Assembly: GCF_014681765.1 (NCBI RefSeq)
Contig: NZ_CP061500.1
Coordinates: forward strand, 62,001-126,000
Length of the DNA: 64,000 nt
Source: Roseicitreum antarcticum
GTDB lineage: Bacteria; Pseudomonadota; Alphaproteobacteria; Rhodobacterales; Rhodobacteraceae
Reading direction: 5' to 3'
Part shown: piece by piece, positions 7,096 through 35,699 of the stretch
Position numbering within the stretch: the first letter of the stretch is position 1
Layout: every line of letters begins with the position of its first letter
Made by a program: the position numbers and the translations under genes
The notes under the pieces: generated by a model
What the model saw: only the letters and a program-made list of their open reading frames with translations
The model's database searches: none
What the model was told of the DNA's origin: nothing

Positions 7096-8022
7096 GCTGC
7101 ACCTGTCCGGTCGAAGGTCTCGGCAATATCTGCGATCTGCGCCATCAAGCTTGGTATGGCCTGAAGATACCAGTAAGTGTCGTGAACATGCGCATGGCCG
7201 AGATACGTGCTGAGAGCGAGGATGTGGCGGGATACGGCGTCGTTGTCGCATGGGCATTGTTCCAGCGATCTCACGGCGAAGCTGTGCCTCATGTCGTGGA
7301 TACGCGGTCCCGGCTGTCCCGGAGCACCCCTCAATCCGATCTTGCGCGAAATTTTCCGGAAGATCGCACTGACCGTGTCGTAGCGCGGCGGAGTACCTTC
7401 GTTGGATAAGAACAGCGCGGTAGTCTCCCCGATGATCGACAAACGAGCGGAGAGATAGCGATCGATTGCCGCACGGGTCGTGCTGTGAATCGGAACAAGC
7501 CTGCTCTTCTTGAACTTGGTGCTGGCGATGACCAGTCCGTCGTCGGTGACATCGCCAAGTCGTAAAGCCAGCGCTTCGGATATCCGCATTCCGGTCGCGG
7601 CGAGCAACCCAAACAATGTGTAATAAGTAAGCGGTCGAAGCGTACCGATCGGACCAAGCGAAGCCGCCGCGACCATGAGACCTCAATCTCCTCGGCCGAA
7701 TAGATATATGGCTGCTTCCGCCGAAATAACCCTCGACCAACGCGTCAGCCGCCGGCACTTCATGCCCGGGATCTTCGGCGTGCATCGCGATCGCGAACCG
7801 GCGTACCGTAAGCAGCCGGTTGCGTCGTTGTTCGGGAGAAGGTGCCTGGATTGCCCATGCGATGACTCGATCGCTTTTGACCATGCCGTCGCCGTGATGC
7901 TCAGCGTAGGTCACGAACATGCGCAGCAAGATCCGCTGCGTTCGGAATTTGAAACCCATCGCCTCGTGAAGCGCGACGTAGCGCGAAAGATCGTCGGTCA
8001 GCATGACACTTCTCCCGGCCAC
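7092..8022 (-). CDS. Tyrosine recombinase, middle RIT gene (frameshifted)
   Basis: The start MAGRSVMLTDDLSRYVALHE is at 8022 and overlaps the end of the first gene by 25 bases. Catalytic motifs are TGMRISEALALRLGDV, IHDMRHSFAVRSL and a final LGHAHVHDTYWYL. The N-terminal and catalytic parts are in different frames here. Compared with copy 2, this copy lacks one G of a GGG run near 7738 and one near 7681, so the region reading FRRKQPYIYSAEEIEG is out of frame. Copy 2 is intact exactly there, so the ancestral gene was probably whole. Confidence 0.75.
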
Positions 8023-13884: not shown

Positions 13885-15852
13885 TCATGCATGCTCCCCT
13901 ATTATCGACCGCGTCGTCTGCACAGCCGAAGCCAACGTGGCCCGATCCCGTTCCGAGATCCCCAGATTTCCGAGATTGAGGTCAAGCTGCACGGGCGCCG
14001 ACAACGCCCCTGCGCGCGCAGCCCGACCTCGCGATGAACTCGGCGGCTTTTGCAAATCACCTTCTGTCGCTGGCGTTTGAGTCAATACTGCCGGGGATGC
14101 CTTATCATGTGATGTCCCAGCCGCCCGCACCTCGTTCAATTCCTGCCTCAACTTCTCGACAGTCTCTCGTGTTTCCGTCATCTGACGATCCCGACGCAAG
14201 CGCTCCTCGTCCGGATAGGGGAAACTGCCCACCTGACCAGCATGCAGCACCTTCAGCGCCGGGTCGTCGAAATACTTGATCCGCCGTGCCCGGATCGGCA
14301 TCTGCGCGTCGATCACGAGGATCACTTCATCAAGGTCCATGCGCCGAGCCTGATCTTCAGTTAGGAGCGGTGTGTCCTCGGTCCGCTCGGAGACGCTCCG
14401 CCCCTCGAAGGGATTGCGGCCCACTGCCCGGGAACGAGTCACCACGCGTTTTGTGGTCTTGCCGACGGCCTGGCTCAACTCCTCAATGGTCTTCTGCTCA
14501 GAGGGGGTGAGGTACAGTTTCACGCCCGCGCCGCCCTGGAGCGACCGGCGGGTGTTCTCGCCATAGATTTCGTCCAGCGCCGGGATGGTCTGAGTGACGA
14601 TCGCTAAGTTGCCGCCGAAGGAGCGCAGCGTCTTGATGCTTTCGGCGACGATCGGCATTTTCCCGAGCCGGTCGAATTCGTCGAGCATAATCATGACCGG
14701 CCAGGGTTCATCGTCGCCCGGCTCCTGCGCCTGGAGCGAGGCGATCAGGTCGGAGAAGAACAGCCGGATCAGCGGGGCCAGAGGGCGGATCATCTCGGAT
14801 TCAACCACGAGATAGATCGCGTGCGGTCTTCGCCGGATGTCCCGGAAGGAGAAATCCGAGGTCGCGGTTGCCGCGTTGATCGCGCGGTTATCCCAGGTGT
14901 CGAGACCCGAGGTCATCAAGAGCGAGAGGTAAGAGGTCAAAGTGTCGTTGTTGGTCGAGGCCATGCGCTCGAAGATCAATTTGGCGGACCTGTTCTTCAC
15001 CTCCTGGGCGCGCTTGAGGTACTCCTTCTGCTTGTCGCCCCCTGAAGCGGTGATGCGGTAGATCTCGCCGATGGTGGGCACGCCGCGCTCGAAGGCCAGA
15101 AGACCCGCCGCAACGAAGAGATCGATCCCGCCGGCCAAAAGCCCGCTCAGCTTTTCGTTGTCGGTCTGGAGGAAGAGCTTAGCAGTAAGCTTCAGCTCCA
15201 TCTGCTGCCGGTCGGGGTTGGTCATGGCCGCGATTCGCGCCAGCGGATTGTAGCGATGCGTCGGACGATCCCAGTCGGTCGGGACAAAACGGAAGACCTT
15301 GTCACCCATGCTGGCGCGGAAGCGCGAGGTCTCGCGGAAGTTCTCGCCCTTCACGTCGAGCACCACGGCCGAGCCCTTGTAGGTGAGCAGGTTTGGGATG
15401 ACGAAGCCCACGCCCTTGCCTCGGCCCGTGGGTGCCACGATCAGCGCGTGCGGGAATGTCTTCGAGACGAGGAATGGCCGCTTCGATTTCGGGGGCCCCA
15501 ATTTACCGAGGAGGAAACCGCCGCCCGGCTTGGCGAAGAAACCATTTCGCTTCATTTCGCCTCGGGTTTGCCAATGGGTCGTGCCGAAACGCGTCAACGC
15601 CTCCCCTAGCAGCGTTACGCTCAGCATCAGGGCGGCGAGACCGAAGCCGCCAACGATGAGGTTCACCCAAAGGAATTCCTTGGACGCAGATTGTGACAGA
15701 TCCGGATATTCGCGGACGAGCAGGGTGACGTCGAAACGCGTCGGCGAAAGCCCGTACCGAAACATGAGAAACCCGGTCGCCATGACATAGCCCATCGCAA
15801 GGCCGACCAGCACGAGGCTCAGGATGCCTCCGATGATCTTGCCCCTATCCAT
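13885..15852 (-). CDS. virD4: VirD4/TraG-like coupling protein
   Basis: A 655-residue ATPase that brings the relaxase-DNA complex to the T4SS channel at the inner membrane. Two N-terminal membrane segments (about residues 7-30 and 62-85) precede the Walker A region IVAPTGRGKGVGFVIPNLL (about residues 140-158) and Walker B MIMLDEFDRLGKM. The ATG at 15852 (MDRGKIIGGILSL) is chosen over the upstream frame because it follows a purine-rich stretch and gives the normal membrane start. It overlaps the relaxase stop by 8 bases. The C-terminal 100 residues are a non-conserved charged tail. Confidence 0.93.
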   Translation of the reverse strand: MDRGKIIGGILSLVLVGLAMGYVMATGFLMFRYGLSPTRFDVTLLVREYPDLSQSASKEFLWVNLIVGGFGLAALMLSVTLLGEALTRFGTTHWQTRGEMKRNGFFAKPGGGFLLGKLGPPKSKRPFLVSKTFPHALIVAPTGRGKGVGFVIPNLLTYKGSAVVLDVKGENFRETSRFRASMGDKVFRFVPTDWDRPTHRYNPLARIAAMTNPDRQQMELKLTAKLFLQTDNEKLSGLLAGGIDLFVAAGLLAFERGVPTIGEIYRITASGGDKQKEYLKRAQEVKNRSAKLIFERMASTNNDTLTSYLSLLMTSGLDTWDNRAINAATATSDFSFRDIRRRPHAIYLVVESEMIRPLAPLIRLFFSDLIASLQAQEPGDDEPWPVMIMLDEFDRLGKMPIVAESIKTLRSFGGNLAIVTQTIPALDEIYGENTRRSLQGGAGVKLYLTPSEQKTIEELSQAVGKTTKRVVTRSRAVGRNPFEGRSVSERTEDTPLLTEDQARRMDLDEVILVIDAQMPIRARRIKYFDDPALKVLHAGQVGSFPYPDEERLRRDRQMTETRETVEKLRQELNEVRAAGTSHDKASPAVLTQTPATEGDLQKPPSSSRGRAARAGALSAPVQLDLNLGNLGISERDRATLASAVQTTRSIIGEHA

Positions 15853-18202
15853 GGGTAATCCCCTTCTCGCCATGCGACGCGGCGTGGCGCGCGCGCTGTG
15901 CCTCGATATGTTCCTCAGCCAGGGCGTCGAGAACGCGCTCCATGGCCGGGCCATGAGCAGTAACCTCGCTGCTTTGGAGATAGGTCTTGGCCAATTCTAG
16001 CTGACGCAGCGGATCCTCGGTAAACTTGTCCAGCACTTCGGCATTTCCGGACCGCAGCGCGTTGATCGCGTCGGGCGTCAGGCGTTCGTTCACCTCCTCA
16101 ACAATGCGTTGCTGCTCTGCCCCAGGGATCGTTTCAGGCTCTCCGGAGGCGGCTTCGCGCACAAAAGCCAAGACCGTAGGGGCGGTCTCTTCCAGATAAC
16201 GCCGCTCAGCATAATCCTGACGCGCCTGGTCCTCGATCTCAAAGCTTCGTTCGCTGATGTAGGCACGTGAGGCCCCCAAAGCGCGAAGGTGATTGATCTC
16301 GTCCTGGACCGCCGAACCGAAGTTGTCATCCGGCATCTCCGTGCGGTAGCGAGCGACCGTGCGAAGCTCCTCGGTGATCGGACCGAGATGTTCCGACGGA
16401 TCCCGCGAGGCGAGGTCCATGTCGCCCGCGTGGAGCGTGCGGTCCCGCTCCGCGACCGCGTATTGCGGCGGCTTGCGGCTGTCAGTCGCCTGGTCCCAGG
16501 CCATCGAGGCCAGTTCGGCATGTTGGGGCGATCTTTGCGCATAGACATCAAACGCGCCGCGCGCCTCTTGCACCTCGATTGCACCCCTCTCCCGCACCGA
16601 CGAATCGTCAGAGAACGGGTAGTTGAAATCCGTCCTGCGGAACTGTGCCACCAGCTGCCGGAAATCCTGACGCTCCGTTGCCGCGAATACGTCCGGTCGG
16701 TCCCTTTCGCTGTTATGGCCTGACAGCCGCTCTGCTTCACCAAGGCGGAGTTGGATATCACCCTCTTCCTCTTCCACCTCATCGACGGCTCGCAAGACCT
16801 GCGCGCTTGTCAGGACATCGCCCAGGCGAACATGGACCGCTTCCAGCCGGTCCAGCGCCTCTTCGCGGTCCTCGGTCTTCTCGAGATCAAGATCGCCCCC
16901 CTTGCCGATGGCCTGCAGGTCCTCTGCCAGCCATTGGCGTTCGAGTGCTGCGTTGCCCGCCCCTTCGCCCAGGCGCGCAACGACGGCGTCAGCATCAATG
17001 CCGGTGCCTTTCAGAACCACGGCCAGCTTGGCCTTGACCTCATCTGTGTCGAGGCGCGCGAGATGATCCTCACTCACATTCGGCCGCGCATAAATGCCGT
17101 CCCGGGACGGTGCATCGATAAGGTCGCTTGAGCGATCCCCAAGCGGGTTCAAATGCGCCACCGAGGCCAGCACATCGGTGAGCTTGCGCTCGATCACCGG
17201 GCGCTCGGTGGCAGGGGCCCTGTCGATTGCCGCCTCGATCTGGCGGATGTTTTGGGAAAACTCGGTGATCAGCGTATCAAAGGCGGTGTCGTCGTCGGAC
17301 ATATAAATGGCTCCATCGGATTGGATTGAACTGCCGCTGGCAAGGATGGTGCTGGCCCGCTCGAGGGCTTCGGCCAGGTCTTCGAAGTTTGATCGTGACG
17401 CTTCGGCCGCAAGCCCGCGGTACATCAGGGCATTGCGGGCCACCGTCTGAAGGGCAGCTGAGAGATCAACTCCCGTGCGCTGACGTTCAACGGGGGGCCG
17501 CCCTTCTTCACGGGCCGTGTAGATTTCATCAATGTCGGCGCGATAGGTCGTGACTCCGCGGTCGAGACGACGCGTCGCCTCAAGCCGGATCCCGTGGGCC
17601 TGTGCCGCCTCAACCATCGCCACCCGGAAAGCGTCGTAGTTGAAGTGGTGATCCTTCCCGAGAAAGAACATTTCGCCATCCTTGCTGCGGCGGTTCAGAA
17701 CGATATGCGCATGTGGATGCGCGCGATCTTGGTGTATTGCAGCAATATAGTCGAATTGCGAGCCCTCGCCCTGAAAGAACCGCTCGCAGACGGCTTGGGT
17801 GATGTCGCGCACCTCCTCGCCCTTCGTGCCGACGGGAAAGGCCATCAGGAGATGCGAGGTATGGCCGAGTTTTGGGCTGTGCCGTTCGCCCCATTGGTTC
17901 TCGAAGCGCCGTGCCACGCGCTCGATCTCCGCCCCGGTCAGAGTCTTCTTGCCGTCATGGGTGCCGCGGCTGTCGAGAATGTGGCTCGATTTGGTGGTGA
18001 GATAGGTGAGCTGTGTCCGGAGCTGCGCGCCGGTATGGCAACCGCCCTTGGAGATCGGCTTGAAGATCGCCGGCGAATAGCCGCGCGCGGCGCGAACCAT
18101 CTGTGCGCCCTTCGCAAGCCCCTGCCAGCTGCCCGAGACCCGGCTCCAATCACGGTCGAAAAGCGCAGAACCCGCACCGCGCGCGCTGTCAGTCCGCGCC
18201 AT
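15845..18202 (-). CDS. virD2: VirD2-type relaxase (MOBP-like)
   Basis: A 785-residue relaxase that nicks oriT and pilots the strand. The N-terminal catalytic domain (about residues 40-240) contains the metal-binding motif IHQDRAHPHAHIVLNRR and an upstream Tyr-rich region (LTYLTTKSSHI) that may hold the nicking Tyr. The long remainder is acidic and helical, as in MOBP relaxases with C-terminal secretion signals. The ATG at 18202 overlaps the end of the MobC-like gene by 14 bases, and the gene overlaps virD4, giving a mobC-virD2-virD4 operon. Confidence 0.9.
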   Translation of the reverse strand: MARTDSARGAGSALFDRDWSRVSGSWQGLAKGAQMVRAARGYSPAIFKPISKGGCHTGAQLRTQLTYLTTKSSHILDSRGTHDGKKTLTGAEIERVARRFENQWGERHSPKLGHTSHLLMAFPVGTKGEEVRDITQAVCERFFQGEGSQFDYIAAIHQDRAHPHAHIVLNRRSKDGEMFFLGKDHHFNYDAFRVAMVEAAQAHGIRLEATRRLDRGVTTYRADIDEIYTAREEGRPPVERQRTGVDLSAALQTVARNALMYRGLAAEASRSNFEDLAEALERASTILASGSSIQSDGAIYMSDDDTAFDTLITEFSQNIRQIEAAIDRAPATERPVIERKLTDVLASVAHLNPLGDRSSDLIDAPSRDGIYARPNVSEDHLARLDTDEVKAKLAVVLKGTGIDADAVVARLGEGAGNAALERQWLAEDLQAIGKGGDLDLEKTEDREEALDRLEAVHVRLGDVLTSAQVLRAVDEVEEEEGDIQLRLGEAERLSGHNSERDRPDVFAATERQDFRQLVAQFRRTDFNYPFSDDSSVRERGAIEVQEARGAFDVYAQRSPQHAELASMAWDQATDSRKPPQYAVAERDRTLHAGDMDLASRDPSEHLGPITEELRTVARYRTEMPDDNFGSAVQDEINHLRALGASRAYISERSFEIEDQARQDYAERRYLEETAPTVLAFVREAASGEPETIPGAEQQRIVEEVNERLTPDAINALRSGNAEVLDKFTEDPLRQLELAKTYLQSSEVTAHGPAMERVLDALAEEHIEAQRARHAASHGEKGITHG

Positions 18203-18776
18203 TCTGCCCTCCTGACACCAGACCGGCGAGGGCCTTGTTTACGTCCAGATCAAGCGCCCGACGACGTGCACGGAAAAGTTGCTGGATCTGGTCGGCCAGC
18301 TCAAAAACCAGGCCCGCCAGTTCCCGGATCTCGGCATGGCTTGCCGCTGTATAGGGTGGAAGCTCACCCCGAACCTTGGCCTCGTTCAGCCGCCGCGCCA
18401 CTTGGTTGACGTTGTTGCCGACCCGGTTGAGCGCGGCACTCATCGCGCGCAATTCCTCCGTCATCGCTTCATCGGGACGCAAGATGTCGTCGGCGGCAAG
18501 CATCAGCCGCCGCATAGCGTCTGAGCGATGCGCGATGCCCCGGCGCCCGAGAGCCGCATCAAAACCGCGCAGGTCACGGGCACTGACCCGGATGCCGATC
18601 ACGCGCGAACGGCTGGCATTCGCCTCCTGCCGCTCGGTGCCGTGGTTGGACGCGTTGTAGATCGACACACGGCTGACCCCGTAGCGGGTCGCCAGCTCGC
18701 GCACGGGGACGCCTTCAGCACGCGCTTTGGCGATGCTGAGACGTTCATTCTCGGTGAGGCGACGAGCACGGGGCAT
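18189..18776 (-). CDS. mobC: MobC-like relaxosome accessory protein
   Basis: A 195-residue protein with an N-terminal helix-turn-helix like those of recombinases (LSIAKARAEGVPVRELATRY, then GVSRVSIYN) and a C-terminal MobC-type helix (LNRVGNNVNQVARRLNEA). It should bind oriT and help the relaxase melt the nick region. It is the first gene of the mobC-virD2-virD4 operon and its start is 34 bases from the large inverted repeat at 18810-18862. The added HTH is longer than in minimal MobC proteins. Confidence 0.85.
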   Translation of the reverse strand: MPRARRLTENERLSIAKARAEGVPVRELATRYGVSRVSIYNASNHGTERQEANASRSRVIGIRVSARDLRGFDAALGRRGIAHRSDAMRRLMLAADDILRPDEAMTEELRAMSAALNRVGNNVNQVARRLNEAKVRGELPPYTAASHAEIRELAGLVFELADQIQQLFRARRRALDLDVNKALAGLVSGGQNGAD

Positions 18777-18809
18777 GTAAAGTTAACGTTCCTATTTCTT
18801 GCCATCTTC

Positions 18810-18862
18810 GTACAAGCCCACCGACTCCCAGCGCAAGCGGAGTCGGGTATAAGGGCTTGTAC
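18810..18862. repeat. Nested inverted repeat, oriT candidate
   Basis: Outer arms GTACAAGCCC (18810-18819) and GGGCTTGTAC (18853-18862) pair perfectly over 10 bp. Inner arms CCGACTCC (18821-18828) and GGAGTCGG (18839-18846) pair over 8 bp. A 10-base loop and an asymmetric GTATAA bulge remain. Such an element next to mobC is the expected form of a relaxase recognition site, with the nick likely near one arm. Confidence 0.7.
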
Positions 18863-18872
18863 TCAATGTAGA

Positions 18873-18895
18873 AAATCGGCCTCCGGGGCCGATTT
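18873..18895. terminator. Hairpin, possible bidirectional terminator
   Basis: Stem AAATCGGCC / GGCCGATTT with a 5-base loop. The A and T ends could act as U tracts in both directions. It could instead be part of oriT. Confidence 0.4.
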
Positions 18896-18919
18896 CACGT
18901 CTTCTGTCAAATGCAGCGC

Positions 18920-19186
18920 GCATCGCGCTCAATGCATTTCGTTCCGCGTCTTTTGCATCGCGCATCACGCCCGTTGCAGGACGTTTCGCGCACCCCGCAT
19001 CGCGTCTTCTGGCAAAAGGCAAGCGCCCAATGCACCGCGCATTGTGCAGCGTGTCCGATGGACCGCGTCTCGTGCCTTCCGTATCCCGTCTTGCGCAATG
19101 CGCCTTTCGCCTAATGCCGAATGGAGCGTGTTTTCGGGACGCTGCAGATCGCAATCTGCAGCGCGTCGCGTGGCCTGCGCATCGCG
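18920..19186 (+). repeat. Degenerate GC-rich repeat field with GCATCGCG octamers
   Basis: GCATCGCG occurs at 18920, 18955, 18997 and 19179, within a field of related words such as GCGTCTTCTG and GCGCAT. The spacing is irregular, so these are iteron-like rather than a strict tandem array. They may bind the MobC-like or VirC proteins. Confidence 0.5.
19140..19163. repeat. 10-bp stem hairpin
   Basis: CGCTGCAGAT, loop CGCA, ATCTGCAGCG: a perfect 10-bp stem upstream of the virC1-like gene. Confidence 0.6.
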
Positions 19187-19276
19187 TCATCTGCTTGACG
19201 CGCCTCGCTCTACCGAATAGCGACATTCAGGTGTCTTTGTCTCATTTCACTATTTTTGTTAGAGGGAGCCAACATC

Positions 19277-19996
19277 ATGCCAAACGACAATCTCGTGGTG
19301 ATTGCTGTGATGGCCCGGAAGGGCGGGAGTGGAAAAACCACCGTGTCCCGCGCCCTGATCAGCGCTGCCGTGGCTGCCGGTCGCCGGGTGCTGCTGATCG
19401 ACACGGACAGCACTGGTGTGCTGGGTGCCTGGCATCAGCGAGCTGAGGCAACGGGGTTTGGGTCGCCACTCTTGCAGTCAGCTTCGGTCGAGAGTGTCGC
19501 GGCTGTCGATCGGAAGATCGAGCAGGTCTATGTGGCGGACTCCGCCGACTTCGTCTTCGTCGACACGGCCGGTGTCGGGGCCGAGTGGTCGGATGGCATC
19601 GCTGTACTCGCCGATCACATCGTCACGCCGGTCATGCTCTCAACCTCGGATCTCGATGTGGGCGCGCAAACCGCCGACTGGTTCGAGAAGCTGAAATCGC
19701 GCGTCGACGATCCCTCAAGCCTGCCACGCCATCATGTCGTCCTCAACATGGTCGACCCAAAGACCACCCGCGCCGATGCCACGCTGATCGAGGCGGCAGT
19801 TGCGCGGTTTCCGGTGATCGAGACGGTGATGATGCGCCGCAATGCCTACAAGGAAATGGATGAGAAGGGCCTACTTCATGCCGTGGCCTTGCAAAAGCAG
19901 AGGGACCCAAACCCGTTGATGCGCCCGCATGTACGCCACGTCGTCGAGGCGTTGGAAGAGGCCACTGACATTTTGAATAACATCTTGGCGGCGTGA
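19277..19996 (+). CDS. virC1: VirC1-like ParA-family ATPase
   Basis: A 239-residue P-loop ATPase with deviant Walker A ARKGGSGKTT near residue 15, Walker A' (LLIDTDSTG) and Walker B-like FVFVDTAG. It resembles VirC1, the ParA-like protein that gathers relaxosomes at the T4SS at the cell pole. The ATG at 19277 follows AGAGGGAGCC, so the upstream frame start is not used. It is followed 10 bases later by a VirC2-like gene and faces the mob operon across oriT, the same layout as virC and virD in Agrobacterium. A plasmid-partition ParA is an alternative, but no parB follows. Confidence 0.85.
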   Translation: MPNDNLVVIAVMARKGGSGKTTVSRALISAAVAAGRRVLLIDTDSTGVLGAWHQRAEATGFGSPLLQSASVESVAAVDRKIEQVYVADSADFVFVDTAGVGAEWSDGIAVLADHIVTPVMLSTSDLDVGAQTADWFEKLKSRVDDPSSLPRHHVVLNMVDPKTTRADATLIEAAVARFPVIETVMMRRNAYKEMDEKGLLHAVALQKQRDPNPLMRPHVRHVVEALEEATDILNNILAA

Positions 19997-20006
19997 GGGC
20001 AGACCA

Positions 20007-20663
20007 TTGCGTAAGAAGATACCAACCATCACCCGGCCCGATACAGCCTATTCAGCAACGCTGAGGCAAGACAGTGGAAAGAACCCGGTAGGAGAGGAAA
20101 TAGGGAGTACCGCGGCGCGTGTTCAAACCGCAAATGACGCCGTTACCACGGGGCGAGAATATCATTCCGATGCGGAGTCCGTTGATGCCAAGGATGAGCC
20201 GGGACGGGAGGTGGAGCGAGCAAAGGCGACCGACGGTCCACCGCTAGCTGCCAAAGGCTCCCCCCTTACACGAAAGATCGACATCCGGGTCAACGCGCTC
20301 GCAAGGCAGGAGGCGGCGCTTTTGGCTTGCGGCGTCGATCCTGCGCATGTGGTCCGCGCCGCCCTGCGTCGCGCGGTCAAGGGCTGGCAACTGGCTCCGG
20401 TCTTTGCGCCTCCCTCTGACGAGCGGCGCACCCGCAACATGCAATGGCAAGCCCGCACGTCGCTGGCCGTCTACACTGCTCATTTGCATGTTCTTCTCCG
20501 TGAGAATGATCCACTTGATGTGCTGAGCAAGTGGGCCCTGATCCGCGGCCAGGTCGAGCCGCGGATCTGGGCCGAAATTGACGCTCTGATCGAGGAACTC
20601 AAGGATTTTGCTGCAGCGCCGCATGACCCCGATAACGCTGAAACAACCGATATAGATAGATAA
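20007..20663 (+). CDS. virC2: VirC2-like ribbon-helix-helix protein
   Basis: A 218-residue protein with a disordered, acidic N-terminal 90 residues and a C-terminal domain that begins TRKIDIRVNALARQEAALLA and continues with a helix VVRAALRRAVKGW, matching the VirC2 RHH-type DNA-binding fold. The TTG start at 20007 is 10 bases after the virC1 stop. It should bind near oriT (overdrive-like) and boost transfer with VirC1. Confidence 0.7.
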   Translation: MRKKIPTITRPDTAYSATLRQDSGKNPVGEEIGSTAARVQTANDAVTTGREYHSDAESVDAKDEPGREVERAKATDGPPLAAKGSPLTRKIDIRVNALARQEAALLACGVDPAHVVRAALRRAVKGWQLAPVFAPPSDERRTRNMQWQARTSLAVYTAHLHVLLRENDPLDVLSKWALIRGQVEPRIWAEIDALIEELKDFAAAPHDPDNAETTDIDR

Positions 20664-21162: not shown

Positions 21163-22269
21163 ATGGCCTGGAACTGGACACTGCCCGATTGGCCGGATTT
21201 CCGGTATGACGCCACCGTTCTGGAGCAGTTCGAGCGGAAGTTTCTGCTGTCGTCGGGCGAGATCGTCGGTGCCGTGTATCATGTCAGCCCATCAGAGCGC
21301 GAACAACTGCGCATCGAACTTCTGAGCGAAGAAGCGATGCAAACCAGTGCAATCGAGGGCGAAATCCTCGACCGGCTGAGCGTCCAGTCGTCTTTGCGCC
21401 GCCATATGGGGCTAGACCCTGACAGCTACCCCACCAAGCCGCGTGAGCAGGGCGTGGCGGAAATGATGGTGGACCTCTATTCGGGTTTTGCTGATCCGCT
21501 CGACCACGAGACGCTGTTTCGCTGGCACCGGATGCTCCTGTCACACGATCATCGGATGGAGGCCATTGGCGAGTACCGACAGCACACCGAGGCAATGCAA
21601 ATCGTCTCGGGACGCCTTGACCGCCCGACAATACATTTTGAAGCGCCTCCCTCAGTTCAGGTCGCGCCGGAGATGGAGCGCTACGTTGAATGGTTCAACA
21701 AGACCGGACCCGGCCGCGCAACGCCGCTCTCAGCCCTGACGCGTGCGGGGCTTGGCCACCTATACTTTGAGAGCATCCATCCTTTCGAGGATGGCAATGG
21801 CCGGTTGGGCCGCGCCGTGGCTGAAAAATCCCTGGCGCAGAACATTGGCCAACCGAGCCTCATAGCGCTTGCCTTCACCATCGAAAAAGAACGGAAGGCC
21901 TATTACGACCAACTCGAGTACCATCAGAAGACGCTGGACGTGACAGAGTGGCTCGTGTGGTTCGCCGAGATCGTCCTGAAAGCCCAGCAGGTCACGCTCG
22001 AGCGGGTCGGGTTCTTCATCAGCAAGGCGCACTTTTACGACCGGCACCGCGGTCAGTTTAACGAGCGCCAGGACAAAGCTATCGCGCGGATGTTTCGGGA
22101 AGGTCCCGCCGGGTTCAAAGGCGGGCTCAGCGCCGAGAATTACCTCAAGATCACCGGCACCTCGCGCGCGACCGCGACCCGGGACCTGCAGGACCTAGTC
22201 GAAAAGGGTGGGTTGAAACGAACTGGTGAGCGGCGGCACACGCGATACTGGTTAAACTTGGAGGTCTGA
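21163..22269 (+). CDS. Fic-family protein (AMPylase-type)
   Basis: A 368-residue Fic protein. The N-terminal part (DUF4172-like, residues about 1-90) carries TSAIEGE near residue 64, which matches the inhibitory S/TxxxE[G/N] motif of self-inhibited (class II) Fic enzymes. The core motif HPFEDGNGRLGRA (about residues 206-218) is complete, with catalytic His and ATP-binding Arg residues. The C-terminal 90 residues form a winged-helix-like region (LKITGTSRATATRDLQDLVE). It should transfer AMP to a target protein and may sense or repress through its HTH. It is directly upstream of the restriction operon but separated from it by palindromic operators. Confidence 0.92.
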   Translation: MAWNWTLPDWPDFRYDATVLEQFERKFLLSSGEIVGAVYHVSPSEREQLRIELLSEEAMQTSAIEGEILDRLSVQSSLRRHMGLDPDSYPTKPREQGVAEMMVDLYSGFADPLDHETLFRWHRMLLSHDHRMEAIGEYRQHTEAMQIVSGRLDRPTIHFEAPPSVQVAPEMERYVEWFNKTGPGRATPLSALTRAGLGHLYFESIHPFEDGNGRLGRAVAEKSLAQNIGQPSLIALAFTIEKERKAYYDQLEYHQKTLDVTEWLVWFAEIVLKAQQVTLERVGFFISKAHFYDRHRGQFNERQDKAIARMFREGPAGFKGGLSAENYLKITGTSRATATRDLQDLVEKGGLKRTGERRHTRYWLNLEV

Positions 22270-22370
22270 TCCGCGTCGTAACATTGGAAAGAACAACGCC
22301 AGCGGTCTGCGCAGTCAGTACTGCCAAGCTTCGTAGTGATGGACTGGCAATTCTAGCACTTTGATCTGTA

Positions 22371-22400
22371 TTTTTGCTGTAGGCCGGTCTACAGCAAAAA
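22371..22400. promoter_or_regulatory. Palindrome 1 before the restriction operon
   Basis: TTTTTGCTGTAG and CTACAGCAAAAA are perfect 12-bp arms around GCCGGT, and a T-rich run follows (ATTTTATTG). It can be both a terminator for fic and, through its core CTGTAG-N6-CTACAG, an operator copy related to the one at 22435. Confidence 0.6.
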
Positions 22401-22434
22401 TTTTATTGACGCTGCCGCTTCCAGGCCTTATGTG

Positions 22435-22452
22435 CTGTAGGACAGCCTACAG
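22435..22452. promoter_or_regulatory. Palindrome 2 before the restriction operon
   Basis: CTGTAG-GACAGC-CTACAG has the same core arms as 22377-22394. It ends 8 bases before the ATG of the half-size hsdS, so a protein bound here would block translation start or transcription of the operon. Confidence 0.6.
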
Positions 22453-22460
22453 AGATCAAA

Positions 22461-23066
22461 ATGCTACTTGCAGATACTTGCACCATTCACAGCGGATACA
22501 CAGCCCGGGGCCGACTCGAAGCCACCGAGGCCGGCGGCGTTCTCGCAATTCAACTGCGCGACATTTCTCCCGAGGGGGTCATCAACCCAGAACGCCTTAC
22601 GCGCGTACAATTGGAGGGCTTGGCTGACCGCTACTTCGTGCGGGCAGGCGACGTTGTGTTTCGGTCGCGGGGAGAGCGAAACACAGCGTCCGTTCTAGAC
22701 AAACGGCTGCAGGAGCGTGCGCTTGCAGTTTTGCCATTGCTTGTGCTGCGCCCGAAACATGATGTCGTGATACCGGAGTATTTGGCCTGGGCCATCAATC
22801 AGCCGCCTGCACAACGCCACTTTGATGTAGCGGCGCGCGGCACAAACATCCGGATGATCCCCAGATCCAGCCTCGACGACCTGAAACTTGAGATCCCTGA
22901 CATTGAGACCCAAGGAAAGATTGTTGCGATTGATGCTCTTGCTGAACAGGAGCGCGCGCTAGCCCTGCTCGTCGCCGAGACTCGCAGAAAGATGATGAGC
23001 CTGATCCTCGTCGAGCGAGCGAACAGGCTGCGCCCCAAAACACGGCAGGAAAGGACGTCGAAATGA
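22461..23066 (+). CDS. Half-size type I specificity subunit (HsdS-like)
   Basis: A 201-residue protein with one target-recognition domain: LRDISPEGVINPERLTR, FVRAGDVVFRSRGERNTAS, LLVLRPKH and the closing RGTNIRMIPRSSLDDLKLEI, then a helix (LDALAEQERALALLVAETRR-like) typical of the HsdS spacer. Complete HsdS proteins have two such units and about 400 residues; the one at 25604 is complete. It overlaps hsdM by four bases (ATGA). It may work as a homodimer or give the methylase a second specificity. Confidence 0.85.
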   Translation: MLLADTCTIHSGYTARGRLEATEAGGVLAIQLRDISPEGVINPERLTRVQLEGLADRYFVRAGDVVFRSRGERNTASVLDKRLQERALAVLPLLVLRPKHDVVIPEYLAWAINQPPAQRHFDVAARGTNIRMIPRSSLDDLKLEIPDIETQGKIVAIDALAEQERALALLVAETRRKMMSLILVERANRLRPKTRQERTSK

Positions 23067-24580
23067 CCGACCAACTCACACAGCAACAGGTCAACCAGAC
23101 GGCTTGGGCCGCTTGCGACACCTTCCGAGGCGTCGTCGATGCCGGACAGTACAAGGACTACATCCTGGTGATGTTGTTCCTGAAATACATCTCTGACCAC
23201 TGGAACGACCACCTCGAAACCTATCGCAACCAGTATGGCGGCGATGAAGCGCGGATCCGGCGTCGACTTGAGCGCGAGCGCTTTGTTCTTCCGGAGGGCG
23301 CCAGCTTCTACGATCTCTATGAAGCGCGTAATGAGGCCAATATCGGGGAGCGGATCAATATCGCGTTGGAGAGGATCGAAGATGCGAACCGCGCCAAGCT
23401 TGAAGGTGTGTTCCGCAACATCGACTTCAACTCCGAGGCCAATCTCGGGCGCGTCAAAGACCGAAATCGCCGCCTTAAGAACGTGCTGGAGGATTTCGCC
23501 AAGCCTGCACTCGACCTACGCCCCAGCCGCGTGACAGAAGACATCATCGGCGAGTGTTATATCTACCTCATCTCGCGTTTTGCGTCTGACGCGGGCAAGA
23601 AAGCTGGCGAGTTCTACACGCCGTCTGCTGTCTCTCGTCTGTTGGCGAAGTTGGCTGCCCCCAAGGTCGGCGACACCATCTGCGACCCGGCCTGCGGGTC
23701 CGGTTCGCTGCTGATCTGTGCGGCAGAGGAGGTCGGCTCCGAGAACTTCGCCCTCTACGGCCAGGAAGTGAACGGCGCGACATGGGCGTTGGCACGTATG
23801 AACATGTTTCTGCATGCCAAGGACGCTGCACGCATCGAATGGTGCGACACCCTCAACAGTCCTGCGCTGGTTGAGGCCGATCACCTTATGAAATTCGATG
23901 TGGTTGTGGCGAACCCGCCATTCTCCCTCGACAAATGGGGGGCAGAGGACGCGGCAAGCGATCAGTTCAAGCGGTACTGGCGCGGCATCCCGCCGAAGTC
24001 CAAGGGCGACTATGGCTTTATCACCCACATGATCGAGATCGCCAAGCGTCAGAGCGGCCGTGTGGCCGTCATCGTTCCGCATGGTGTTCTGTTCCGGGGC
24101 GGGGCCGAGGGGCGGATCCGGCGGGCGCTGATCGAAGAGAACCTGCTCGACGCGGTCGTTGGCCTTCCTGCCAACCTCTTCACCACCACTGGCATCCCGG
24201 TCGCAATCCTGATCTTCGACCGTTCCCGCGAACAGGGCGGCGCGAATGAAACCCGGCGCGATGTTCTGTTTATCGACGCCAGCAAGGAATTCACGCCCAG
24301 CAAGACGCAGAACGTGATGGACGAGGCGCATGTCAACAAGGTGTTGGAGACCTATACCACCCGTGCCGAGGTCGACAAATACTCGCATCGCGCCAGCATG
24401 GAAGAGATCGCCGAGAACGACTTTAACCTGAATATTCCCCGCTACGTCGATACCTTTGAGCCAGAGGAAGAAATCGACGTTGCCGCTCTGCAAAAACAGA
24501 TCACCAATATCGAGGCAGAGCTGATCGAGGTCCGCGGGCGCATGGCTGGCTACCTGAAGGAGCTTGGCGTCGATGTCTGA
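23063..24580 (+). CDS. hsdM: Type I restriction-modification methylase HsdM
   Basis: A 505-residue N6-adenine methyltransferase. The N-terminal HsdM_N helical domain (residues about 5-140) precedes SAM motif I CDPACGSGSLLI (about residue 207) and motif IV VVANPPFSLDKWG (about residue 281), with GEFYTPSAVSRLLAKL before motif I. It is coupled to the upstream half hsdS and overlaps the next gene by eight bases. It should protect host DNA with HsdS and form the restriction complex with HsdR. Confidence 0.96.
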   Translation: MTDQLTQQQVNQTAWAACDTFRGVVDAGQYKDYILVMLFLKYISDHWNDHLETYRNQYGGDEARIRRRLERERFVLPEGASFYDLYEARNEANIGERINIALERIEDANRAKLEGVFRNIDFNSEANLGRVKDRNRRLKNVLEDFAKPALDLRPSRVTEDIIGECYIYLISRFASDAGKKAGEFYTPSAVSRLLAKLAAPKVGDTICDPACGSGSLLICAAEEVGSENFALYGQEVNGATWALARMNMFLHAKDAARIEWCDTLNSPALVEADHLMKFDVVVANPPFSLDKWGAEDAASDQFKRYWRGIPPKSKGDYGFITHMIEIAKRQSGRVAVIVPHGVLFRGGAEGRIRRALIEENLLDAVVGLPANLFTTTGIPVAILIFDRSREQGGANETRRDVLFIDASKEFTPSKTQNVMDEAHVNKVLETYTTRAEVDKYSHRASMEEIAENDFNLNIPRYVDTFEPEEEIDVAALQKQITNIEAELIEVRGRMAGYLKELGVDV

Positions 24581-25607
24581 TGGCGAAATCATCCTTTACA
24601 GCACCGAGGACGGCGCGGCTGAGATCCAGCTGCGCGCCGTTGACGGCACCGTCTGGCTCAGCCAGATCGAGATCGCCGAACTGTTCCAGACCTCCAAGCA
24701 AAACGTCAGCCTGCATATCCGCAAAATTCTGGCCGAGGGCGAGTTGGACCCCGAGTCAACTGTCAAGGAATACTTGACAGTTCAAACCGAGGGCCCCCGT
24801 CAGGTGAAGCGGTCTGTCACCCTCTACCGGCTCGAGATGATCCTCGCCGTGGGATACCGGGTGCGCAGCCCGCGTGGCGTGCAGTTCCGCCGCTGGGCGA
24901 CATCTGCGCTGAAGGAATTCCTCGTCAAGGGCTTCGTCATGAATGACGAACGCCTGAAGGATCCCAAGTGGGACTACTTCGACGAGCTTCTGGAACGCAT
25001 CCGCGACATTCGGGCGTCCGAGGCGCGGTTCTACCAGAAGGTGCGCGACATCCTGGCGCTGAGCGAGGATTACGATGCGCAGTCGTCGGCCGTTCCGACC
25101 TTTTACGCCACGATCCAGAACAAGATGCTTTACGCCGTTACCAGCCACACGGCGGGCGAGTTGATCCGCGCGTGGGCTGATGCAGACAAGCCCAACATGG
25201 GCCTGACCACCTGGAAGGATGCCGGCAAGGGTCGCGCACTGCGCAAGGCGGATGTCGGCACCGCCAAAAACTATCTGGGCGAGGCGGAGATCAAGGAACT
25301 GAACCTGATCGTTGAAACCTTCCTGAACACCGCCGAGCTGCGCGCAAGCCGCCGCCAGACCATGCGGCTGGCCGATTGGGACGGTGTGCTGGATACCTTT
25401 CTGACCAGCAACGAACTGCCCCGGTTGCAAAGCGCGGGGTCAGTGTCGGCCAAACAGGCCGAACGCATCGCGCATGGCCGCTATGCCGCCTTCGACAAGG
25501 CACGCAAGGCCACGCAGGCGCTTGCGGCCAGCGAGACCGATGAACTGGACGAGTTGAAGCGGATCGCCGATGGCGCGAAAGGGCGGAAGAAGGGGGAGGG
25601 AATATGA
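24573..25607 (+). CDS. rhuM: RhuM-family protein
   Basis: A 344-residue protein starting at ATG 24573 (MSDGEIILYSTEDG). The N-terminal half has the RhuM signature: VWLSQIEIAELFQTSKQNVS, SVTLYRLEMILAVGYRVRS and FRRWATSALKEFLVKGF, an HTH-type DNA-binding fold. The C-terminal half resembles a Fic/Doc-associated virulence-RhuM helical region. RhuM genes are often found inside type I restriction operons. The role is not established; a regulator or toxin-like effector are both possible. It overlaps hsdM and hsdS on both sides, so it is expressed with them. Confidence 0.85.
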   Translation: MSDGEIILYSTEDGAAEIQLRAVDGTVWLSQIEIAELFQTSKQNVSLHIRKILAEGELDPESTVKEYLTVQTEGPRQVKRSVTLYRLEMILAVGYRVRSPRGVQFRRWATSALKEFLVKGFVMNDERLKDPKWDYFDELLERIRDIRASEARFYQKVRDILALSEDYDAQSSAVPTFYATIQNKMLYAVTSHTAGELIRAWADADKPNMGLTTWKDAGKGRALRKADVGTAKNYLGEAEIKELNLIVETFLNTAELRASRRQTMRLADWDGVLDTFLTSNELPRLQSAGSVSAKQAERIAHGRYAAFDKARKATQALAASETDELDELKRIADGAKGRKKGEGI

Positions 25608-26833
25608 AGACCCCTGCAAATTGGCAAAGCGTCTTGATGCACAGAATTGCCGATGTTCGGTCGGGCCTCTCAAAGAGCTCGAACCGTGAGGGGCAAAGTG
25701 TCAAAAAGCCATATATGCGAGTGGCTAACGTTCAAGATGGCTTTATCGACCTTTCCGAAGTTCAGGAAATTGATGTCCCCATAAATCAGGTTGCCCGCTT
25801 TACATTGATGCCGGGTGATATTCTCCTAATCGAAGGCAACGGTAATCCAGAGAACCTTGGTCGCGGATGTATCTGGGGAGGCCAAATTCCTGACTGCGTG
25901 CATCAGAACCATGTGTTTGCAGTAAGAACATTGAAAGATGCCAAATTATTGCCCGACTTCTTGATGCTTCAACTCCAGTCCCGCAGGGGTCGAAACTACC
26001 TTCTTTCGTGCGCAAAAAGCTCTACGGGTCTTGCCACCCTCAATGCAAGCCAGTTAAACCAATTCCCGGTTCATCTCCCCCCACTCCCCGAACAGCGCAA
26101 GATCGCCGAAATCCTGCGGACATGGGACGAGGCTATCGAAAAGCTGACCGCGCTGCGCAGCGCGAACTTGTCCCGCCGCATCTGGATGCGCTCTCACCTG
26201 TTCACAGGCCGCATACGGCTGCCCGGCCATACCGGCGCGTGGCGCGAGGTAACCTTGGGCAAGGTCCTGACCGAACACGGGCTGAATGGCGCTGGCGCGG
26301 AAGAGGTGTTCTCGGTCTCGGTCCACAAGGGACTGATCAACCAGATCGAGCATCTTGGCCGGTCCTTCGCCGCCGCCGACACGGGCCATTATAACCGCGT
26401 CCTGCCCGGCGATATCGTCTATACCAAAAGCCCGACAGGTGAGTTTCCGCTTGGCATCATCAAGCAAAGCAAGATCGCGCAAGAGGTCATCGTCTCGCCG
26501 CTCTACGGGGTGTTCACACCCGCGACCCACGCGCTTGGCGTGATCCTGGATGCGCTGTTCGAATCCCCCATCGCAGTGCGCAACTACCTGCACCCGCTGG
26601 TGCAGAAGGGTGCCAAGAACACCATCGCCATCACCAACCGCCGCTTCCTTGAAGGCAAACTGCGCCTGCCGATGGACCCCGCCGAACAAGCCGCAATCGC
26701 CGAGGTCGCAATAACAACGCAGGCGGAACTGGCCTGCATCGACGCCGAAATCGACGCCCTGACCCGCCAGAAGCGCGGCCTGATGCAAAAGCTGCTGACG
26801 GGTGAATGGCGTGTGAAGGTGGAGACAAACTGA
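25604..26833 (+). CDS. hsdS: Type I specificity subunit HsdS, full length
   Basis: A 409-residue protein with two target-recognition domains (about residues 10-150 and 205-360), each followed by a helical spacer: LPPLPEQRKIAEILRTWDEA marks the first. The second spacer ends LTRQKRGLMQKLLTGEWRVK, a normal HsdS terminus. The first 100 codons use less GC-rich wording than the rest, as expected for a horizontally exchanged recognition domain. It starts inside the end of rhuM (ATGA). Confidence 0.93.
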   Translation: MKTPANWQSVLMHRIADVRSGLSKSSNREGQSVKKPYMRVANVQDGFIDLSEVQEIDVPINQVARFTLMPGDILLIEGNGNPENLGRGCIWGGQIPDCVHQNHVFAVRTLKDAKLLPDFLMLQLQSRRGRNYLLSCAKSSTGLATLNASQLNQFPVHLPPLPEQRKIAEILRTWDEAIEKLTALRSANLSRRIWMRSHLFTGRIRLPGHTGAWREVTLGKVLTEHGLNGAGAEEVFSVSVHKGLINQIEHLGRSFAAADTGHYNRVLPGDIVYTKSPTGEFPLGIIKQSKIAQEVIVSPLYGVFTPATHALGVILDALFESPIAVRNYLHPLVQKGAKNTIAITNRRFLEGKLRLPMDPAEQAAIAEVAITTQAELACIDAEIDALTRQKRGLMQKLLTGEWRVKVETN

Positions 26834-28230
26834 TGGCCCGTGGCTTCCAGCAGCATGACCCCGAGCGCGATGGCACCCTAGAGGTCGAGGAAGTGCATCC
26901 CAATTTCGTTGAGGTCTTCTTCGTCCCGCCGCATCACAGCTTGCGTTCGTCCGGGCTCGACCCGGCGCAGGCAAAAGCGCACAGGGCAAAGCTGCTGGAT
27001 ATCAACGGCCAGGACCGGTTCCTGACCATCTACCCGATTGGGACTTTCGGCGACAAACCCGATTTTCTGAAACCAAAGTACGCCCAAGTCGAACGGATCA
27101 CCCTCGCCGATAAGCACATCGTTGTGCCCACGACGCCCAAAGGCGTTCTTAACATTCTAGAGAACCTGCCGTCCGCCTTCACCAAGGACTTTGCCTACGG
27201 GCTTGGTCTGGCAAAGCCATACCGGTTCATCATTGACGCCGTCGAAACCCTGTCGGACTGCACCGAGATCGTGATCAGCGGCAAGGAAGAGACCGGCCCG
27301 GCCTCGAACGAAAAGCTGTTCTTCATTTCGAACAAGGACTTTGAGCTGGCGCGGCGCGAAATGAACAGCATCGACAATCTGGCTCAGTCCGCCGCGCGCG
27401 CCGTCAAAGGGACGGCGGCTCACAACATTCTGGCCGAGCGTCTTGGTGTGGCCAAGCTTGACCCCAAAGTCGGGCGGCATCCCTATCGCAAGCTGTTCAC
27501 CACAGTAGCGCAGGGCAAGACCGAGCTTTCGGAAGAGGATCAGAATGCCGTTATCGGAGCACTGACTAACCACGCTGCCGACATTGCCGAGGTTCAGCCG
27601 GAAAAGCTAGCCAAGCTGCGTAGCGACATCGAACTGGTGACACTGGAAGCGCTGATCAGGCGATATGAGGCGATGCTGGGCGAGACGCTCGTTGAAGACC
27701 GCTGGCAGGACTTCTTCAACGAAAACCCGTTCATCCTGAACATGGCTTTCGGCTATCCCGTCATCAAGGTGCGGGACCAAGCCTCTGTTGGAGGACGGAA
27801 ACTATCTGGTGACGGCGAGAAGATCACCGATTTTCTGGTCAAGAACAGCCTGACCAACAACACCGCGATCTTCGAGATCAAGACGCCGCAGACCGCGATC
27901 TTGAACAAGACGCCGTTTCGCGAGGGCGTATATACGCCGTCTTCTGACCTTTCCGGATCGATCAATCAGGCGCTGGATCAGAAGTATCAGTTCCAGAGCC
28001 ATATCGCGCAGATCAAGCATAACTCGCGCATCTCTGACCTCGAGTCCTATGCCGTGCACTGCTGCCTTGTCATCGGCAAGACGCCCGAGGGCGATGACAG
28101 GAAGAAGTCCTTCGAGCTGTTCCGGCGCAATTCCAAGGACGTCGAGATTGTGACGTTCGATGAGCTTCACGAGAAACTGAAACAGCTGGGCGCATTCCTG
28201 CGTGCCGCTGAGGGAGGGGCAGCCGCATGA
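26833..28230 (+). CDS. Shedu-like nuclease (DUF4263/SduA family)
   Basis: A 465-residue protein whose C-terminal third has the DUF4263 nuclease core: WQDFFNENPFILNMAFGYPV, EKITDFLVKNSL and AIFEIKTPQTAIL, a D...E-x-K type PD-(D/E)XK arrangement at about residues 295-355. The N-terminal 290 residues are an unassigned sensor-like region. Shedu is a known single-gene anti-phage defence. Here it is embedded between hsdS and hsdR with one-base (TGATG) and four-base overlaps, so it is made with the restriction complex. Family assignment is from motif recognition only. Confidence 0.75.
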   Translation: MARGFQQHDPERDGTLEVEEVHPNFVEVFFVPPHHSLRSSGLDPAQAKAHRAKLLDINGQDRFLTIYPIGTFGDKPDFLKPKYAQVERITLADKHIVVPTTPKGVLNILENLPSAFTKDFAYGLGLAKPYRFIIDAVETLSDCTEIVISGKEETGPASNEKLFFISNKDFELARREMNSIDNLAQSAARAVKGTAAHNILAERLGVAKLDPKVGRHPYRKLFTTVAQGKTELSEEDQNAVIGALTNHAADIAEVQPEKLAKLRSDIELVTLEALIRRYEAMLGETLVEDRWQDFFNENPFILNMAFGYPVIKVRDQASVGGRKLSGDGEKITDFLVKNSLTNNTAIFEIKTPQTAILNKTPFREGVYTPSSDLSGSINQALDQKYQFQSHIAQIKHNSRISDLESYAVHCCLVIGKTPEGDDRKKSFELFRRNSKDVEIVTFDELHEKLKQLGAFLRAAEGGAAA

Positions 28231-29066
28231 AGTTCATCTATATCGACGAAAGCGGTTCGCGCGATCAGGGCGACGTCTTCGTAACGTGTGGCCTGATGGT
28301 GGATGCGTACAAGCTACGCAAGAAGACCGCAGACTTCGATCAGCGGCTTGAGGCTTTGTTCGCCAAGCATCCGGGAAACAGGGCGGATTTCAAGACGAGC
28401 CGGTTCATCAATGGCAAGGGTGGCTGGCGCGAGATCGACGCGGTGGAGCGAAAGGAGTTCCTCAAGAGCGTTTGCGAACTGGCTGTCGAGAATGGTGGCA
28501 AGATCTTCGGGTTGGGATTGTCTTTTGCCGCTTTTGACGTTGCGACAGCGGCAGGCCATGCTCAGCCGGTAGGCACGACTTACTGGCTTGCGTCGGCAAT
28601 GTTCACAGCCTGCCTTGTCCAGAAAAAGATGCAAGCCGTCAAGAATAGCAAAGGTCTGACTGTCGTCATTATGGATGACAACAAGGCCGAGATGCCCAAG
28701 CTGTCAGACGAACTCTATCAGGGCAATGCATGGTTCGATGGCCTCTACCAGCTTCGGGGGAAGAAGCGCGGGAAGGCCGTCTGGTTGGAGCGCACTAAGA
28801 AGGATCGGTTCGACCACATCATCAACACGGCCTTCGCGATCAAGTCGGACCATTCTTCAATGGTGCAAGTCGCGGATGCGATGTCCTACGTCTACCGGCG
28901 GCATTTGGAATTGGCCGCCGTCGCTGAGACCTGGGTGGGCGAAAAGGATTATTACACCGAACTGGTCGCCATTCTCGAACCTGCACGAGAAACCCACGGC
29001 CATTGCCCGGACGAGCCTTGCGTCAAGTTTTTCAAGTCAGCGAAGCATCCGGAGTGGAAATTGTGA
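28227..29066 (+). CDS. DUF3800 domain protein
   Basis: A 279-residue protein with the DUF3800 start MKFIYIDESGSRDQGDVFVT and later acidic residues (VVIMDDNKAE) and VQVADAMSYVYRRHLE, consistent with the RNase H-like fold predicted for this family. Such genes are frequently next to mobile or defence genes. It overlaps the Shedu-like gene by four bases and hsdR by four bases, so it is in the same operon. Nuclease function is predicted for the family, not shown here. Confidence 0.85.
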   Translation: MKFIYIDESGSRDQGDVFVTCGLMVDAYKLRKKTADFDQRLEALFAKHPGNRADFKTSRFINGKGGWREIDAVERKEFLKSVCELAVENGGKIFGLGLSFAAFDVATAAGHAQPVGTTYWLASAMFTACLVQKKMQAVKNSKGLTVVIMDDNKAEMPKLSDELYQGNAWFDGLYQLRGKKRGKAVWLERTKKDRFDHIINTAFAIKSDHSSMVQVADAMSYVYRRHLELAAVAETWVGEKDYYTELVAILEPARETHGHCPDEPCVKFFKSAKHPEWKL

Positions 29067-35696: not shown

Positions 35697-35699
35697 GAA

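Follow-up and report, generated by a model that had tools for sequence, protein, structure and literature searches.

A predicted VirD2-type origin of transfer beside a phased heptad array in Roseicitreum antarcticum

What is the function of the intergenic segment that separates mobC from virC1 (18777–19276) in Roseicitreum antarcticum, and what is the role of the long series of short repeats that it carries? We examined the segment within a window of 64 kb (the whole stretch of DNA analysed, to which all positions refer). The window is part of contig C3 of a five-contig genome, and the named records examined with the same locus are plasmids. Our best explanation, to which we give a probability of about 0.72, is that a conjugative element of the VirD2-type MOBP class has its origin of transfer (oriT) in this segment, and that the oriT is joined to an extensive array on which a ParA/ribbon-helix-helix protein pair would land. 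The original prediction had also proposed an oriT here. That proposal is now backed by a conserved nic-like motif, a covarying hairpin, the synteny of relaxase, MobC and VirD4 genes, and the occurrence of relaxase-less oriT–mobC units elsewhere, and from these sequence comparisons it stands as a predicted oriT.

Genes flanking the segment

Three genes run leftwards from the segment on the minus strand. The product of mobC (18189–18776) combines an N-terminal helix-turn-helix (HTH; Pfam HTH_23, E = 1.4e-6) with a short MobC match (3.9e-5), confirming the extra HTH that had been claimed for it. The second gene encodes a VirD2-like MOBP relaxase (15845–18202) that matches Pfam Relaxase (1.2e-13), the NCBIfam VirD2 model (2.8e-21, under the equivalog cut-off) and NCBIfam MobP1 (6.9e-5, under that model's own cut-off). 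As for VirD2-type MOBP oriTs, a relaxase of the MobA/VirD2 nuclease family is therefore encoded adjacent to the segment. The third gene encodes a VirD4-like coupling protein (13885–15954; Pfam T4SS-DNA_transf, 1.1e-81), whose start codon is uncertain. Rightwards, on the plus strand, lie a gene for a virC1-like ParA ATPase (19277–19996; Pfam VirC1, 1.2e-22) and a gene for a virC2-like protein (20007–20663). The divergent arrangement of a mobC-virD2-virD4 operon and virC1 is thus present as described, with Pfam or NCBIfam matches for MobC, the relaxase, VirD4 and the VirC1-like ParA. Two open frames that overlap the segment, at 18528–19220 (+) and 18792–19226 (−), were set aside as likely by-products of the GC-rich sequence.

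The 20007–20663 gene matched no Pfam family, and sequence comparison against Pfam and the PDB gave no hit to VirC2. The AlphaFold2 model of its product contains two beta-alpha-alpha units (residues 88–124 and 149–203), with 110 residues at a pLDDT of at least 90. The best row from VIA-align was VirC2 of pTiC58 (2rh3; Z 4.9, rmsd 4.9, 108 aligned), a middling score with mechanosensitive-channel rows just below it, and Foldseek gave an E of 0.18 for the model against the VirC2 fold. From the model, we predict that the protein is VirC2-like by fold, with a tandem ribbon-helix-helix (RHH) C-terminal domain. Of the virC1-virC2 pair that had been claimed, VirC1 is recognised by sequence, while virC2 is a predicted VirC2-like fold with a modest match.

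Predicted nic site and a nested hairpin kept by selection

We placed the nick by homology with the motifs of relatives and by the MOBP consensus, predicting cleavage of the + strand between 18801 and 18802, at CTATTTCTTG^CCA (equivalently, TATTTCTTG^CCA). The predicted nic region, CCTATTTCTTGCCA (18791–18804, +), had not been named in the original prediction; the nic itself is 25 bases upstream of mobC. With a nick at this place, the leading DNA from 18802 on (hairpin, array and virC1) would enter the recipient first, and mobC-virD2-virD4 would enter last.

All 14 columns of 18791–18804 were invariant in the 52 aligned sequences (window counted in). From plasmids and genomes found via the relaxase or DNA similarity, we gathered 69 distinct 120-nt sequences upstream of mobC, of which 68 contain CCTATTTCTTGCCA and the remaining one, from plasmid L115, reads TATTTCCTGCCA. 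Among 11 distant plasmids compared, nine carry TATTTCCTGCCA or TATCCTGCCA at the place of nic. The former is found in seven of them (L115–L121), whose relaxases are 39–51% identical over the best piece, and the latter, which is the canonical motif, in L124 and L125, whose relaxases are about 32% identical; no nic motif was recognised in L122 and L123. Read from these sequences, the motif of the window's clade grades toward the canonical MOBP TATCCTG^CCA across distant relatives. The MOBP nick consensus is reported as (C/T)ATCCTG(C/T), with ATCCTG the core required by VirD2 and RP4 TraI (PMC3772185). Exact ATCCTG is absent from both strands of 18777–19276, and the homologous place reads TTTCTTG^C, two of six bases off the core, which we count against our best explanation. 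Compared with known MOBP oriTs, the window itself lacks the exact core, and its relatives grade to the exact motif.

An 8-base spacer, CCATCTTC (18802–18809, +), separates the predicted nic from a perfect nested inverted repeat (18810–18862). Its outer arms (18810–18819/18853–18862) are 10 bp and its inner arms (18821–18828/18839–18846) 8 bp long, exactly as had been described. Such a nest was found in 0 of 300 dinucleotide shuffles of 18777–19276, where a lone 10-bp repeat without the nest was reached in six. Two further hairpins that had been claimed are also present: a small one, AAATCGGCC/GGCCGATTT, between the nested repeat and the array (18873–18881/18887–18895), and a 10-bp inverted repeat, CGCTGCAGAT/ATCTGCAGCG, within the array (19140–19149/19154–19163). 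Of 80 distinct sequences, 72 have an arm of at least 6 bp at the place of the small hairpin.

Folded as single-stranded DNA, the nested stem gave a z of −6.28. Across 52 sequences, 97.8% of its cells are paired and seven pairs have changed on both sides, giving a covariation score of 0.202, compared with 0.060 for shuffles and at most 0.053 for slid-partner controls. This covariation shows that the nested hairpin is kept by selection. A recognised nic motif was present in 14 of 20 loci tried, and z was −2 or lower for the 3′ side in 11 of these and for the 5′ side in two; the 3′ fold is weak in L105, L120 and L125. In eight of the 14 minimum-energy folds, including folds in which the stem sequence is unrelated, exactly 8 nt lie between nic and the beginning of the stem on its 3′ side. 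Loci L101 and L105 start as in the window (8 nt) with extra pairs within the spacer, and the start differs in L119 (9 nt), L124 (5 nt) and L143 (21 nt), while L125 has no stem near nic. As in MOBP oriTs, an inverted repeat thus lies beside the predicted nic; here it is nested, 8 nt off and covarying, but on the 3′ side. The MOBP oriTs of RP4 and Helicobacter pylori tfs4 likewise have a (C/T)ATCCTG(C/T)-type nic and, close by, an inverted repeat, placed 5′ of nic, a difference that we also count against our explanation; the available text of that source describes no phased array (PMC3772185).

A phased heptad array associated with VirC1-type ParA

The array (18899–19213, +), defined by phase count and period-7 power, is a series of 45 consecutive 7-bp units that each begin with G, spanning 315 bp. 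The commonest bases by position are G-C-A-T-C-G-C, of which the leading G alone is fixed; 43 of the 45 units have a pyrimidine at position 7, and none has A at position 2. With a period-7 power of 5.99, it exceeds every other part of the window (mean 0.74, sd 0.47). The next-longest run of one base at spacing 7 in the 64 kb has 10 copies, and runs at spacings 4–6, 8–13 and 15 reach at most 13. Given the local G content, a run of 45 units from a set start has a probability on the order of 1e-26.

This region had been described as a field of four octamers. Four copies of the octamer GCATCGCG are present on the + strand of the segment (at 18920, 18955, 18997 and 19179), at least four occurred in 0 of 2000 segment shuffles (mean 0.13, both strands), and any octamer reached four copies in 1 of 1000. 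All four copies are in-phase heptads in one shared 7-bp frame. Counted across all 64 kb, the 18 sites of GCATCGCG do not significantly exceed the 11.5 expected, since 7 of 100 shuffles reached 18, and the + strand is without a copy in 10 of 76 distinct sequences. We therefore rejected the octamer as the unit: the octamers are real, but the field is a 7-bp phased array in whose frame they lie.

Within the window's clade, the longest run has 22–57 units in all 76 distinct intergenic sequences with virC1 (the window and 75 others), a set that omits sequences without virC1 in the stretch, orphan loci (described below), L115, and loci with a mobC match short of its start. Sequences without virC1 in the stretch have runs of 18 (L096), 53 (L075), 30 (L054) and 13 (L064, a 209-bp remnant). 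In 886,732 bases from 80 loci, there are 120 spacing-7 runs of at least 16 copies, and all 120 lie inside the mobC–virC1 gap; none of that length occurs in these bases at spacings 5, 6 or 8–12. The 29 relatives of 552 bp that align without gaps vary at 4 of 51 phase-G sites and at 115 of 306 sites of the other positions (Fisher p = 9e-6). The 561- and 562-bp groups, for which gapped alignment is needed, show no clear sparing of G. The distance from nic to the first heptad is 97 nt in 75 of 80 sequences, 90 nt in three, and 92 and 89 nt in one each.

Using a distant VirC1-like ParA as query against 394 genomes of the family, we obtained 34 places in 32 genomes; 30 of these places were taken as loci (window included). 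Each of the 30, many of which belong to the window's clade, has a phased run of at least 12 copies, at spacing 7 in 29 and at spacing 8 in L170 (23 copies). Runs at other spacings in these loci reach 14, so the run of 13 in L144 is not telling alone. Conversely, the array is found in none of six ParA-less plasmids with the same type of HTH-MobC and relaxase (L115, L116, L117, L120, L121 and L125), nor is there one in L139. Within the window's own genome, one of 17 ParA-family loci has an array, namely that of the window. Class-wide searches found MobC in 3 of 385 genomes and VirC1 in 3 of 385, the own genome being counted in each.

Beyond the window's clade, we compared five distant plasmids with ParA. 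There are 54 heptads in L118, runs of 17, 16 and 15 in L119 and 42 octads in L122; L124 has a strong period with a mean of 7.4 rather than 7.0, and L123 has no clean run, with a periodogram peak at 4.0. The records of L118, L119 and L122 were not among the 20 matches listed by a DNA-similarity search of plasmids. Nine further plasmid loci were chosen from 50 plasmid rows listed, leaving out Agrobacterium and Rhizobium records and near duplicates. In five of these (L193, L194, L195, L197 and L198), a period close to 7 stands out over every one of 100 shuffles, L197 being a short stretch without an annotated transfer gene; L201 has a period of 6.45. The peaks of L196 and L199 (7.05 and 7.95) do not rise above 100 mononucleotide shuffles, and their runs of 13 and 12 are suggestive. 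No array was found in L200, where ParA lies beside a replication gene in a stretch without an annotated transfer gene. L191 and L192, whose ParA proteins are 28–35% identical and outside the family, have no spacing-7 run of at least 11. These comparisons show conservation, covariation and phasing at this locus, and the association of the array with VirC1-type ParA.

Spacing varies by lineage, being 8 in L122 and L170, 7.4 on average in L124, 6.45 in L201 and perhaps 8 in L199.

Seven genomes carry orphan loci (L102–L108) with the same nic and hairpin, a MobC that is 40–44% identical, and 19–31 heptads on the opposite strand; two of these loci sit in chromosome-sized contigs of 3.55 and 4.08 Mb. 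In larger regions around four of the orphans (L128, L129, L131 and L132), only mobC among the window's transfer genes turned up a relative; the relaxase, VirD4 and VirC1 turned up none. The other three have no relaxase or VirC1 relative within the ∼2–3 kb examined. With the window's relaxase as query (E of 1e-8), six of the seven orphan genomes gave no match and the seventh gave a C-terminal piece. HipA-type genes lie beside L129 and L131 (Pfam). A 41-kb Pukyongiella plasmid of the window's clade (L126; NZ_CP043622.1 31713–41166) has the oriT core and mobC with no relaxase in the stretch examined, and a relaxase is present on another plasmid record of its species. Its array (L096/L126) has 18 heptads with no ParA nearby, and L130, from the window's clade, has 46 heptads beside a split mobC match, again with no ParA nearby. 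The orphans, L126 and L130 break the pattern of an array adjoining its own ParA, and look like hitch-hikers. That they keep the array and hairpin without a relaxase or ParA nearby argues that both serve transfer. The array is not essential in every system: the Dinoroseobacter shibae plasmid L116 is ParA-less and without an array, and conjugation is reported for D. shibae sister plasmids (PMC4886583; PMC5613091).

An 18-copy spacing-7 run was also seen at L110. The 16-kb region around it (L133; G128:C10:420000-436000) has no MobC, relaxase or VirC1 relative, and a distant MOBP relaxase is encoded on a different contig of that genome.

Proposed role of the array and comparison with known systems

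Our proposed mechanism combines what is reported for VirC1/VirC2 and overdrive with what is reported for RHH proteins on heptads. VirC1 and VirC2 interact mutually and with VirD2 and VirD1, and VirC1 binds overdrive and takes the substrate to the polar channel (PMC4285021, PMC4949242). On pSM19035, an RHH ParB binds contiguous 7-bp repeats, at least four of which are needed for ParA activation (PMC9499535). By analogy, the relaxase, aided by HTH-MobC, would nick the + strand at TATTTCTTG^CCA and remain attached to the 5′ end. The nested hairpin 8 nt away probably serves recognition by the relaxase and MobC, and re-closure. The VirC2-like protein would bind the 45 heptads cooperatively, probably with one RHH unit per 7 bp, like omega on its 7-bp parS. 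VirC1 (ParA) would then engage the array filament and carry the relaxosome to VirD4/VirB, as VirC1 does with overdrive for T-DNA. Once occupied, the array could in addition control expression of the two divergent operons, those of mobC and virC1. We infer the proteins that bind the array, and its role in delivery, from these likenesses.

A wider reading is tentative, and we judge it somewhat more apt to fail than to hold. It states that relaxosomes with a VirC1-type ParA generally bear a ‘transfer centromere’, a long array phased at 7 to 8 bp onto which a VirC2-type RHH protein loads; the sequence of the array would drift freely but its phase would stay. Elements that are integrated and lack a relaxase and ParA would keep a copy so that the VirC1/VirC2 of another element can fetch them, and the Ti overdrive would be a shrunken relative.

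An array of this form might instead be chiefly a partition site of the omega parS kind, with VirC1 and the VirC2-like protein segregating the plasmid and the oriT merely a neighbouring module. A ParA, an RHH protein and heptads are indeed the layout of pSM19035 (PMC9499535), and the array often abuts the start codon of ParA (L166–L169 and L118). We nevertheless consider partition unlikely as the main role, since nic, hairpin, mobC and array persist in the orphans with no ParA nearby, also in the two that sit in chromosome-sized contigs, 75 of 80 distinct sequences hold the array at 97 nt from nic, and another ParA-family gene on the same contig (C3:14155) is without an array. The original prediction had suggested that the HTH of MobC might recognise the repeats, which would make the array an operator or architectural element for MobC. 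MobC has the HTH that this calls for, the four larger orphan regions yielded no relative of a window transfer gene apart from mobC, and L126 has mobC and the array with no ParA in the stretch. The six ParA-less relatives that share this HTH-MobC and the hairpin, yet have no array, make such recognition less likely, and in L118 and L119 the array adjoins ParA, some 350–400 bp from nic and mobC; as an account of the array, we hold a MobC site to be highly unlikely.

The conserved leader raises a different doubt, that it is only the ribosome-binding or promoter region of mobC, with the hairpin an attenuator and the oriT elsewhere. An AGGA does lie ∼13 nt ahead of the ATG on the mobC strand. The 14 consecutive invariant bases extend well past the AGGA, however, distant relatives L124 and L125 have a canonical MOBP nic at the same place, and neither strand of 18777–19276 contains ATCCTG; we count all three against this account and leave it a very slim chance.

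Returning to an oriT joined to a landing array, the parallel with the Agrobacterium virC/virD arrangement that had been drawn earlier is borne out, and is extended by the predicted VirC2-like fold of the second gene (a modest match): a VirD2-type relaxase, a divergent ParA-type VirC1 and a predicted RHH second gene here resemble the VirD1/VirD2 border with VirC1/VirC2 and overdrive there. The Agrobacterium border nic reads ...TG^CCA, like the motif of the window. Overdrive, too, is an accessory site adjoining the point of cleavage (PMC4285021, PMC4949242). Its candidate counterparts here are the cis array next to the predicted nic, the VirC1 match given above (Pfam, 1.2e-22) and, for VirC2, the modest fold match. 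The window's VirC1 is 25–27% identical to the Agrobacterium proteins among the matches listed. Agrobacterium exports T-DNA and has VirD1, whereas self-transfer is proposed here, with HTH-MobC and no annotated VirD1; the hairpin at nic is a further difference from the border. The array, at 45 heptads and 315 bp, also far exceeds the 24-nt minimal overdrive (PMC5030305) and the 83-bp native overdrive region (PMC13277942). A possible bridge to Agrobacterium is locus L199, which has 12-copy runs at spacing 8 and is annotated with virD1, a relaxase, ParA and a VirC2-family protein.

The delta/omega/parS system of pSM19035 from Streptococcus shares with this locus a ParA, an RHH protein and contiguous non-palindromic 7-bp repeats. 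It has 7–10 WATCACW repeats per site, and the available text of the source mentions no oriT, in contrast to the 22–57 degenerate, G-anchored heptads beside nic and the predicted two-unit RHH protein here (PMC9499535). With 45 heptads, the window's array exceeds the four contiguous 7-bp repeats that mark an omega-type parS; its G-C-A-T-C-G-C does not follow the WATCACW consensus. In R388 stbABC/stbDRs, a ParA-like protein, a DNA-binding protein and direct repeats also lie by oriT and link stability with transfer, but the repeats are two sets of five 9-bp units with 2-nt spacing, bound by StbA (PMC3098194). NAH7 is alike in outline only, in that type I partition proteins stimulate transfer and ParR binds the oriT region; its protein families differ (PMC12421886).

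Among the matches listed from the openly licensed literature, neither a heptad array at an oriT nor a mapped oriT of this plasmid group appeared in titles or the beginnings of abstracts, which is weak evidence of novelty. The word oriT is absent from the roseobacter-plasmid papers searched for it, and some roseobacter genome reports have one mention each. How VirC1/VirC2 use overdrive to bring DNA to the type IV channel is, in our judgement, still loosely understood. The loci described here pair the same kinds of proteins with a very large regular target, making binding, ATPase activation and delivery directly measurable. The phase of the array together with nic also provides a rule for finding oriTs and relaxase-less mobilisable elements in Rhodobacteraceae.

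Elsewhere in the window, 21163–32278 holds genes for a Fic protein, type I restriction (HsdS, HsdM, HsdS and HsdR), a RhuM-like gene and a Shedu SduA gene, and this restriction/Fic/Shedu block is on the side predicted to enter the recipient first. At 6089–9092, two tyrosine-recombinase genes (6089–7126 and 7998–9092) surround an unassigned frame, with IS66- and IS110-type transposases outside them. At 34665–40079, a gene for a Toprim-domain protein lies in tandem with one for a strawberry-notch-type helicase of 1459 aa.
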